A stretch of DNA of 64,000 bases, taken from Paraclostridium tenue (lineage in GTDB: Bacteria > Bacillota > Clostridia > Peptostreptococcales > Peptostreptococcaceae). The translations under genes and the position numbers were made by a program. Shown piece after piece: positions 21,694-62,367 of the stretch (its first letter is position 1; every line of letters starts with the position of its first letter). Location: contig NZ_JADPFO010000001.1 in NCBI RefSeq assembly GCF_015668515.1, positions 1,204,823 to 1,268,822 on the forward strand, given 5' to 3'. A model generated the notes under the pieces. The model saw only the letters and a program-made list of their open reading frames with translations, was not told the DNA's origin and ran no database searches.

Positions 21694-21812
21694 AATGCTA
21701 ACCGAAGTTAGCGAAGGATGAATATATAAGTTGAAGCGACATTTACAAGCATCTTTTTAGCTTGTATGGAGCAAAACTTATATATTCATCCAAGCGCCCC
21801 TCAATTAGCATT
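21694..21812 (-). other. Structured element B, directly after the glycerol operon stop codon
   Basis: Outer stem AATGCTAA (21694-21701) with TTAGCATT (21805-21812); inner 17-base stem (21716-21732 with 21775-21791); third stem TACAAGC (21744-21750) with GCTTGTA (21760-21766). A side hairpin GCTAAC-CGAA-GTTAGC at 21697-21712 reads as cUUCGg on the minus strand. Loops GCGAAGG, TTGAAGCGACA and TGTATGGAGCAAA match element A at 9551. It starts at the stop of the DUF1667 gene. The nature of the element is unknown. Confidence 0.6.
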
Positions 21813-22209
21813 ATATACAATGTTTTAATTCATGATCATATCCATCATTTAAATTTAAACTTTCCATAGATTTTGCACTAACAACATCAACACCAGTTCC
21901 TAAAACATCCTTAACAATAACATCTCCAACACTAACTGGAGCATTAACCTCAACATTATCTAAAAGCTTCATAATATCAAACATAAGCTCCTTAGGAACA
22001 GAATCATTAGTCTTAACAGGAAGTAAATTTAAATAACCTCCATTTAACTTAACAGTAGTAGTTATAACCCTTCTAGGATTTGTAACTTCCTCTACTCCAT
22101 ATTTAGCTCCTCTTTTACAAGTATTTCCTTCAACTTTATATTCACCATCAACTTTACTAACAACTAAAGAACATCCCATTGGACAAACAGTACAAGTAAT
22201 ATTTCTCAT
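21811..22209 (-). CDS. DUF1667 protein, partner of the GlpA-like oxidoreductase
   Basis: A protein of 132 residues with the DUF1667 cysteine pattern CTVCPMGC...GNTCKRGAKYGVEEVTNPRRVITTTV, which suggests a bound metal or Fe-S cluster. The family is typically encoded after the two FAD oxidoreductases of the anaerobic-type glycerol-3-phosphate pathway in Clostridia, as here. The start lies three bases after the stop of the preceding gene, with GAGGAGG in the end of that gene, so the two are translationally coupled. Exact role unproven; electron transfer is a fair inference. Structured element B follows the stop. Confidence 0.9.
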   Translation of the reverse strand: MRNITCTVCPMGCSLVVSKVDGEYKVEGNTCKRGAKYGVEEVTNPRRVITTTVKLNGGYLNLLPVKTNDSVPKELMFDIMKLLDNVEVNAPVSVGDVIVKDVLGTGVDVVSAKSMESLNLNDGYDHELKHCI

Positions 22210-22211
22210 GA

Positions 22212-23456
22212 CTAAGCCTCCTCAACACTTACAGTTATATTTCCTTTAATATCCTTAAATAAATCTTTACTAATTTTTATATTTTCCATCTCTGAAGGTA
22301 TCATATGAAGTCTTTTCTTTTCTAAAATTACCTTGTCATCACTTCTTACAACTAACTTTTTATTTTTATAAATTTGTCTAACTCTCATAAATAAGTTAAC
22401 ATCTTCATTATTATCCACGTTTACACTTTGTGGAACTATATATATAATTCCTTCTCCTGCAACAGTTTTTACTTCATTACCTTTATTTAGCTTATTTAAA
22501 GAATAAAGTGCTGCATTTTTACCTGCTATTTTACTTTCTTTAGTAACAAAGTCTACTAAATCATGAACATGAACAACATTACCACAAGCAAACACTCCAT
22601 CTACATTAGTAGCCATAGAATTATTAACTATAGGTCCACTAGTTTTTTTATCTAAATTAACACCAGCTTCAACACTTAACTCATTTTCTGGTATAAGTCC
22701 TACTGATAAAAGCACTGTATCGCAACTTATGTATTCTTCTGTTCCTTTTATAGGATTTCTATTTTCATCTAACTTACAAAGAGTAACTCCTTTAACTCTT
22801 TCTTTTCCATCTATGTGAGTTATTCCAGTGCTTAGCATTAAAGGTATATCAAAATCATCTAAACACTGAACTATATTTCTAGTTAAACCACTTGAATGTG
22901 GATTTATTTCAACTACAGCTTTTACCTTAGCTCCTTCAAGTGTCATACGTCTTGCCATTATAAGACCTATATCACCAGAACCATATATAACTATTTCTTT
23001 TCCTACCATATAACCTTCCATATTAGAAAGTCTTTGAGCTGCACCTGCATTATAAACTCCTGCTGGTCTATACCCTGGTATGTCTATTGCTCCTCTTGTT
23101 CTTTCTCTACATCCCATAGCTAAAACTATTGCATCTGCTTTTATATTTATAATTCCTTCTTCACCTAAAGCTTCTATAGTCTTATCTTCACTTATATTTA
23201 AAACCATTGTATTTAACATATAGTCTATTTTTTCTTCTTTAACCATTTCAATAAATTTATGAGCATACTCAGGTCCTGTTAATTCTTCTTTAAATTCATG
23301 TAATCCAAAACCATTGTGTATACATTGGTTAAGTATACCGCCTAGTTCTCTATCCCTTTCTATTATAAGTACATCTTTTGCACCATTTCTCTTAGCTTCA
23401 ACTGCTGCACCTAAACCTGCAGGTCCTCCTCCAACAACTACAACATTATATTTCAA
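22212..23456 (-). CDS. FAD/NAD(P)-dependent oxidoreductase of the glycerol operon
   Basis: A protein of 414 residues of the pyridine nucleotide-disulphide oxidoreductase fold. It shows the FAD motif GGGPAGLGAAVEA at the start, the CIHNGFGL segment typical of this glycerol-linked group, an NAD motif GSGDIGLIMARRM near 160, and GVFACGNVVHVHDL near the end. Start is TTG with GAGGTG six bases before it, inside the last codons of the GlpA-like gene, so the two genes overlap by 11 bases. It probably takes electrons from the GlpA-like subunit to NAD or a quinone-independent carrier. Confidence 0.9.
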   Translation of the reverse strand: MKYNVVVVGGGPAGLGAAVEAKRNGAKDVLIIERDRELGGILNQCIHNGFGLHEFKEELTGPEYAHKFIEMVKEEKIDYMLNTMVLNISEDKTIEALGEEGIINIKADAIVLAMGCRERTRGAIDIPGYRPAGVYNAGAAQRLSNMEGYMVGKEIVIYGSGDIGLIMARRMTLEGAKVKAVVEINPHSSGLTRNIVQCLDDFDIPLMLSTGITHIDGKERVKGVTLCKLDENRNPIKGTEEYISCDTVLLSVGLIPENELSVEAGVNLDKKTSGPIVNNSMATNVDGVFACGNVVHVHDLVDFVTKESKIAGKNAALYSLNKLNKGNEVKTVAGEGIIYIVPQSVNVDNNEDVNLFMRVRQIYKNKKLVVRSDDKVILEKKRLHMIPSEMENIKISKDLFKDIKGNITVSVEEA

Positions 23457-51127: not shown

Positions 51128-51206
51128 AATATAAGCTCCTTTCATATTTTATATTATAGCATAAATGAAATTGATTATCATTTTTTATTTTTTAAACCAT
51201 AAATTA

Positions 51207-60757: not shown

Positions 60758-61477
60758 TTATAAATATTCCTCTATAGCTTCTCTAGCTAATCTATCAGCG
60801 ATATCATTATATTTGTTAGAACTATGTCCCTTAACTTTAATAAAAGTGATATCCATATCCTTACTATACTTTTCTATATATCTAACATAATCTTGAGTAT
60901 ACTCATTTTTAGCTTGCCAACTTCCACTAGCCCAAAGTGCTATATTTTTTAAGTCATGATATATGCATACCTTTTTTAATTTTTTCTCATGAGCTAATTT
61001 GATAGCATATTTAGAGGCTTCTATTTCGCCTACAATATTCCATTGATCCCACTTATCATGGCCTGCAACTTTAAATTCACACACACTATCATCTTTAAAA
61101 TCAAGTACAACAATTCCAGAACCAAATGTTTTTGATACTCTATCATAACTTCCATCAACAAATGCCACAAAATCAAAATCATTTTTTATATCATCTGGTT
61201 TTATGTATTTTTCAAAATATTTAACTTTTGCGCTGCTTCTTATAGGCTTTAACTCACTTTCTTTATTAACTTTATCTGTTATTTTAGTTTTTATGCTTTT
61301 CTCTTTACTGATTTTAACTTCCTTTTTAATACCTGTAAATTTTTCAGCTTCTTCTAATGTTTTAAAACTTTTATATATAGCTCCTGGAAATTTATTAACT
61401 TGTTCTTTACATTCATCCCAAGTATTATAGATACCAGGCTTTTTTCCAACTTTTACTGCATAATATTTATTACTCAA
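60758..61477 (-). CDS. rnhA: Ribonuclease H1 with an N-terminal viroplasmin domain
   Basis: A protein of 239 residues. Residues 1-50 (YYAVKVGKKPGIYNTWDECKEQVNKFPGAIYKSFKTLEEAEKF) form the hybrid-binding (caulimovirus viroplasmin) domain; a charged linker follows. The RNase H fold starts with FVDGSYD, then NIVGEIEASKYA, IYHDLKNIALW and KYNDIADRLAREA, giving the D-E-D-D active site. It cuts the RNA of RNA:DNA hybrids. The start is TTG with AGGAG eight bases before it. Single gene. Confidence 0.93.
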   Translation of the reverse strand: MSNKYYAVKVGKKPGIYNTWDECKEQVNKFPGAIYKSFKTLEEAEKFTGIKKEVKISKEKSIKTKITDKVNKESELKPIRSSAKVKYFEKYIKPDDIKNDFDFVAFVDGSYDRVSKTFGSGIVVLDFKDDSVCEFKVAGHDKWDQWNIVGEIEASKYAIKLAHEKKLKKVCIYHDLKNIALWASGSWQAKNEYTQDYVRYIEKYSKDMDITFIKVKGHSSNKYNDIADRLAREAIEEYL

Positions 61478-61579: not shown

Positions 61580-61608
61580 TTGACTTTTTAATTGAAAACA
61601 ATTATCAT
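61580..61608 (+). promoter_or_regulatory. Fur-type promoter of a non-coding transcript
   Basis: TTGACT (61580-61585), 17 bases, TATCAT (61603-61608). TGAAAACAATTATCA at 61593-61607 is a Fur box with two mismatches to the 7-1-7 consensus. The block is nearly identical to the flavodoxin promoter 285 bases further on. Confidence 0.72.
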
Positions 61609-61614
61609 TAAATC

Positions 61615-61762
61615 AAGGCAAGAATAAATAATAATCAATATCAATTAAGCAACCAGATTAATTTCATAATAAGCCTAAATTTATTAAATATTGTATATTT
61701 CCTAAGACAAGCAAACGGCAAAAAGGACTGTCCTCCAAACTAACAGTCCTTTTTGTTTTTTT
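61615..61762 (+). ncRNA. Candidate iron-responsive small RNA
   Basis: Between the Fur-type promoter and a strong terminator (AAAAGGACTGT 61721-61731 with ACAGTCCTTTT, then TTTTTGTTTTTTTG) there is no ATG and no reading frame with a ribosome site. The transcript would be about 145 bases. The terminator loop reads CCTCCAAACTA, so CCUCC, complementary to GGAGG, is exposed. Confidence 0.65.
61720..61762 (+). terminator. Terminator of the candidate small RNA
   Basis: An 11-base-pair stem with a loop of 11 bases, followed by a T-rich tract. Confidence 0.85.
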
Positions 61763-61864: not shown

Positions 61865-61893
61865 TTGACATTTTAATTGAAAATAATTATCAT
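61865..61893 (+). promoter_or_regulatory. Flavodoxin promoter with Fur box
   Basis: TTGACA (61865-61870), 17 bases, TATCAT (61888-61893). TGAAAATAATTATCA at 61878-61892 differs from the Fur consensus TGATAATNATTATCA at one position. The rest of the gap 61763-61947 shows no gene. Confidence 0.82.
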
Positions 61894-61947
61894 TAAATTA
61901 AAGTGATTGATAATAAATTTCAATCTCATATATAGGAGGAAATAAAT

Positions 61948-62367
61948 ATGAAAATTATATATTGGAGTGGAACAGGAAATACCGAATCTATGGCAAACCT
62001 TATAGGAGAAGGAATATCTAGCCAAGGTAAAACAGTAGAGTTATTAAATGTAGAAAAAGTAAATATAGATAATATAAAAAATGAAGATATACTAATTCTA
62101 GGTTGCCCCTCTATGGGTAATGAAAATCTAGAAGAAGTTGATTTTGAACCATTTATAGAATCCTTACAAAATCTAGGAAATGGTAAAAAAGCTTGCCTAT
62201 TCGGTTCTTACGGATGGGGGGATGGAGAATGGATGAGAAATTGGGAAGACCAAATGAAAAATTACGGATTTGAACTTCCTCTAGAATCTGTAATAGTAAA
62301 TGAATCTCCTGAAGGCGATGATGCTACTAGATGTGTTAAATATGGCGAAGATATCGCTAATTTATAA
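61948..62367 (+). CDS. Flavodoxin
   Basis: A protein of 139 residues, the short-chain flavodoxin form. The FMN phosphate loop is WSGTGNTESMA, followed by ILGCPSMGNENLEEVDFEPF and FGSYGWGDGEWMRNWEDQM around the isoalloxazine ring. It carries electrons in place of ferredoxin when iron is short, which agrees with the Fur box in its promoter. GGAGG lies seven bases before the ATG. Single gene with a clear terminator. Confidence 0.95.
   Translation: MKIIYWSGTGNTESMANLIGEGISSQGKTVELLNVEKVNIDNIKNEDILILGCPSMGNENLEEVDFEPFIESLQNLGNGKKACLFGSYGWGDGEWMRNWEDQMKNYGFELPLESVIVNESPEGDDATRCVKYGEDIANL

Follow-up and report, generated by a model that had tools for sequence, protein, structure and literature searches.

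The intergenic sequence between an RNase H-type gene and a short-chain flavodoxin gene of Paraclostridium tenue probably contains a free-standing small RNA (sRNA) gene, repressed by Fur, whose product pairs with mRNAs in trans through a conserved block of sequence. From the comparison with related genomes this is very probably a genus-restricted and so far undescribed sRNA candidate, for which the comparative support is strong. The initial annotation had proposed an iron-sparing RNA acting through a CCUCC sequence in its terminator loop. The stand-alone, Fur-controlled non-coding gene survives this analysis, given the conservation of promoter, Fur boxes and terminator within the genus; the loop as the acting part does not. 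The features are collected in Table 1, numbered within the window, i.e. the whole stretch of 64,000 nucleotides that was analysed.

Table 1. Features of the sRNA locus and its neighbours in the window (invariant columns are for n = 5 species).
Feature	Position	Strand	Remarks
RNase H-type gene (Cauli_VI N-terminal domain)	60758-61477	-	divergent neighbour; syntenic anchor
Sigma-A-type promoter, TTGACT-17-TATCAT	61580-61608	+	78% invariant columns in 61580-61615
Fur box 1, TGAAAACAATTATCA	61593-61607	+	overlaps -10 hexamer
Putative non-coding transcript, ~147 nt	61615-61762	+	start set from -10 box; end is the T tract
Fur box 2, TAATAATCAATATCA	61629-61643	+	within transcript start; 80% invariant
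Conserved block, AAATATTGTATATTTCCTAAGACAAGCAAA	61686-61715	+	mostly unpaired; 83% of columns invariant
Intrinsic terminator hairpin, CAAAAAGGACTGT / ACAGTCCTTTTTG	61719-61755	+	arms 61719-61731/61743-61755
Terminator loop, CCTCCAAACTA, 11 bases	61732-61742	+	C-rich in 4/5 species; sequence not conserved
Terminator T tract	61756-61762	+	
Flavodoxin promoter	61865-61893	+	near copy of sRNA promoter; Fur boxes 61878-61892, 61908-61922
Short-chain flavodoxin gene	61948-62367	+	neighbour; predicted to be co-regulated

A promoter with a Fur box had been placed at 61580-61608 in the initial annotation, and described as nearly identical to that of the flavodoxin gene. Both statements hold; a 34-base block of promoter and Fur box is present twice in the 64-kb window, at 61580 and 61865, against an expectation of 0. 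Taken as a class, promoter-like sites in the window do not exceed chance (14 found, 17.4 expected), and single Fur boxes with up to three mismatches are not enriched there. Four boxes with two or fewer mismatches inside 400 bases occurred in 0 of 300 simulated windows. Box 1 is present in all five species compared, in a weaker form in the relative G028. Box 2 lies just 3' of the start site and was absent from the earlier description; in G028 it is a perfect TGATAATTATTATCA. The Fur consensus of C. difficile is TGATAATVAWHWTCA (PMC6311696), and feoAB of the P. tenue genome is preceded by the same type of box as the sRNA gene, which provides a sensible control from within the genome. Both Fur-family proteins and Hfq are encoded in all five Paraclostridium genomes.

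We note two further sites of this kind in the genome. The Fur-box-like TGAAATTGATTATCA at 51166-51180 is identical to the feoAB box, and lies directly 5' of a minus-strand gene for an SBF-family (sodium/bile acid symporter-like) transporter that is possibly another Fur target. Two strong tandem Fur boxes (L087:1501-1515 and L088:1501-1515; G000:C10:406081 and 406156) lie 5' of a gene for a DUF3793 protein, which is probably iron-regulated.

The putative transcript contains no ATG, and no reading frame is conserved across the relatives. A run of ~145 bases lacking an ATG and ending in a strong terminator had been reported before, and this is confirmed (hairpin fold z = -3.2). The terminator stem contains three compensated pairs among the five species, and 60% and 71% of the columns of its two arms are invariant. 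Because its loop is 11 bases long, this terminator falls outside the automatic scan, which covered loops of 3-8 only.

Full-length homologues of 75-78% identity are present in four other genomes (G026, G027, G028 and G029), and the element is found in all five near-complete Paraclostridium genomes; a sixth genome of the genus (1 Mb, 75% complete) is not counted among these. A covariance model of the 3' half matched the five at E ~1e-14. Among 71 genomes of the family it gave no convincing match beyond these five, only weak ones, and the four best of the latter in other genera (L047-L050) are unrelated terminators. There was no match in 292 other genomes of the order, a set that partly overlaps that of the family and includes the incomplete sixth Paraclostridium genome. 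Searches for the element in plasmids and phages likewise gave no match, and in Rfam there was none of significance, further matches scoring well under the curated cut-offs. In the next genus the RNase H neighbours (L062-L066) are without the element. Romboutsia lituseburensis encodes a closely related flavodoxin that has a Fur box, but the RNA is not found beside it. Retention of the element throughout the well-sequenced Paraclostridium species makes it very probable that this is a real regulatory RNA.

A search for conservation of promoter, loop and terminator in related genomes had been proposed as a check; promoter and terminator are kept in all five species, but the sequence of the loop is variable. 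As a yardstick we used the fourfold sites of the RNase H gene, 19% of which are invariant in the same five species, while the spacers of the sRNA locus are 36-41% invariant. Judged from the aligned sequences, the promoter, both Fur boxes, the terminator stem and the block at 61686-61715 are under selection. The block (also written AAAUAUUGUAUAUUUCCUAAgACAAgCAAA) comprises 30 bases, is A+U-rich and lies just 5' of the terminator, and its 3' two-thirds have a predicted unpaired probability of 0.58-0.76. The least conserved part is the terminator loop (18% invariant, i.e. the level of silent sites), which carries CCUCC in P. tenue and CUCCC, CCCC, CCCCC or CUAC in the four relatives, the last of these in G028. 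As the loop is the least constrained, the activity of the RNA probably resides in the A+U-rich block that precedes the terminator. We propose that it provides a pairing site together with an A-rich chaperone site; from what is generally known of such sites, its ACAARCAAA end, next to a terminator with a U tail, looks like a binding site for Hfq. Note that the A+U-richness of the block makes a strong seed less likely.

Pairing of the RNA was examined with RNAduplex over 796 start regions (~27% of the genome). The scan gave numerous matches of equal quality, with no conserved target among them. Iron-like proteins were not enriched in the predicted targets, although no more than 10 of the 796 genes in the sample could be assigned to this class, so that this test had little power. 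Among the iron-protein candidates a bacteriohemerythrin-like gene was the best; it pairs at -18 kcal/mol in P. tenue and at -4 to -11 kcal/mol in the four relatives, and was rejected. The seed TTAGGAAAT occurs beside start codons at 24 sites in the genome, compared with 35 for the reversed control; of those examined that looked conserved, the sole clear site is inside an rRNA uracil methyltransferase-like open frame. The genomes show no excess of long sequences complementary to the block. A minus-strand pair of genes at 21811-23456, for a small CxxC protein and a FAD-dependent oxidoreductase-like protein, ranked high in a crude pairing scan with the RNA.

The RNA lies between the divergent RNase H gene and flavodoxin in P. 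tenue and G029. The order in G026 and G027 is RNase H, flavodoxin, RNA, and in G028 it is RNase H, RNA and a response-regulator gene. In each of the five genomes the RNA is thus a neighbour of this RNase H gene, directly or across the flavodoxin. The arrangement in P. tenue and G029, with the RNA adjacent to the flavodoxin gene, upstream and on the same strand, and the near-identical promoters in this species, would be consistent with a premature-termination leader or attenuator of flavodoxin, or with an alternative upstream promoter for it, the RNA itself being functionless. We regard this as very improbable. In G026 and G027 the RNA is downstream of flavodoxin, and the intergenic sequence of G027 places flavodoxin's own terminator before the RNA promoter. 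G028, whose genome is 99% complete, has no close relative of the flavodoxin, yet it keeps the RNA with its Fur boxes. Moreover the flavodoxin gene has a Fur promoter and terminator of its own, and the block inside the RNA is strongly constrained. On these gene orders, and with G028 lacking flavodoxin, the RNA gene is independent of flavodoxin, and is neither its leader nor an accident of promoter copying. The Fur promoters at 61580-61613 and 61865-61898 are far more alike in P. tenue than in its relatives. Taken with the swapped order of flavodoxin and RNA, this suggests local recombination, which would have occurred between the tandem Fur promoters of the two genes. In G028 the sRNA terminator overlaps the end of the convergent response-regulator gene, and may serve that gene as well.

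The remaining alternatives concern what the RNA does. It would be unlikely, in our view, that the CCUCC loop is the main acting part, binding Shine-Dalgarno sequences in the manner of FsrA or IsrR. The loop sequence had been read correctly, is predicted to be fully unpaired in this species and is C-rich in most of the others, and it is predicted to pair with start regions somewhat better than most shuffled loops do. However, the idea is weakened by the loop being the part that is least conserved and by its absence in G028. In the sampled start regions its best pairings are mostly with non-iron proteins, and the one iron-protein candidate is not kept in the relatives. That the locus encodes a very small protein under Fur control is the least probable of the readings considered; some species have a short open stretch (NIVYFLRQANGKKDC) running through the block, but there is no ATG here, no ribosome-binding site was seen and the frame is broken by a stop in G029. 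Alternatively, the partner of the RNA might be a protein and not an mRNA, as it would be if the RNA titrated a regulator. Its most conserved stretch has an A+U-rich sequence and an A-rich tail, and no clear complement to it was found in mRNA, both of which would fit such a role, but no repeated protein-binding motif was seen and the gene is present as a single copy in the genome, leaving this with little probability.

Our preferred reading is an RNA that pairs with mRNAs through the block. The sequence shows the promoter, two Fur boxes, the terminator, the conservation and the independence from flavodoxin; that the RNA is transcribed, is derepressed in low iron, acts in trans, uses Hfq and spares iron is inferred. 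The free-standing gene would give a product of ~145-150 nt. When iron is plentiful, iron-bound Fur on the -10 box and on the box past the start would block transcription; when iron is scarce Fur would be released, and the RNA would be made alongside the neighbouring flavodoxin. This switching model draws on the sequence and on what is known of Fur regulation in C. difficile. The RNA would end at its own intrinsic terminator, and would most likely pair with mRNAs in trans via the open block AAAUAUUGUAUAUUUCCUAA. The ACAARCAAA stretch next to AAAUAUUGUAUAUUUCCUAA, and the U tail, are possible Hfq contacts, while the C-rich terminator loop would make an accessory contact at most. Iron sparing is a plausible function, and the most plausible outcome would be that iron-rich proteins are lowered while flavodoxin replaces ferredoxin.

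sRNAs repressed by Fur have been described in Proteobacteria, Bacillus and Staphylococcus. A search of the clostridial literature, made mostly of papers available without subscription, found none described there, whether in Paraclostridium or in C. difficile, and no Fur-repressed sRNA is discussed in a large study of C. difficile Fur. The C. difficile flavodoxin gene fldX is Fur-regulated, being induced in low iron and in a fur mutant (PMC6311696, PMC10913485). The predicted iron control of the Paraclostridium flavodoxin resembles this, but a homologue of the RNA was not found in other genera of the family among the 71 genomes. We suggest tentatively, at somewhat less than an even chance, that this is the first iron-sparing-type sRNA of Clostridia, evolved independently in Paraclostridium and pairing (possibly with Hfq) through an A+U-rich block of 30 nt, not through C-rich anti-Shine-Dalgarno motifs like those of FsrA and IsrR. 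If this is true, strict anaerobes that rely heavily on ferredoxin for their energy metabolism acquired the iron-sparing layout anew. In Paraclostridium, which is closely related to C. difficile, the RNA would also be a compact test case of whether clostridial Hfq serves iron control.

Among the known systems, IsrR of Staphylococcus has a sigma-A promoter, two Fur boxes, an intrinsic terminator and confinement to one genus in common with the Paraclostridium RNA, and is of similar length at 174 nt (PMC9410917). One of its Fur boxes is in the promoter and the second just past the start, and mutagenesis demonstrated that both act (PMC9410917). No relation in sequence or synteny was seen between the two. 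Outside its terminator IsrR has three C-rich regions that are conserved and single-stranded, whereas the Paraclostridium RNA has one variable C-rich terminator loop. The targets of IsrR have been demonstrated. FsrA of Bacillus subtilis is likewise Gram-positive and Fur-repressed, and blocks translation of iron-protein mRNAs, a role that is proposed for the Paraclostridium RNA. FsrA is 84 nt in length with C-rich regions, and has the Fbp helper proteins (PMC12871923); it is thus shorter and C-rich, whereas the Paraclostridium RNA is longer and its conserved part A+U-rich. The C-rich Shine-Dalgarno-binding region of FsrA has no counterpart, the only C-rich site of the Paraclostridium RNA being the terminator loop that is lost in G028. 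RyhB, PrrF and NrrF resemble it in being Fur-repressed and free-standing, with an intrinsic terminator and Hfq in the genome, but these are Proteobacterial families and the Paraclostridium RNA has no significant Rfam match. By its layout the RNA would work like IsrR, FsrA and RyhB, but it is a member of none of these families.
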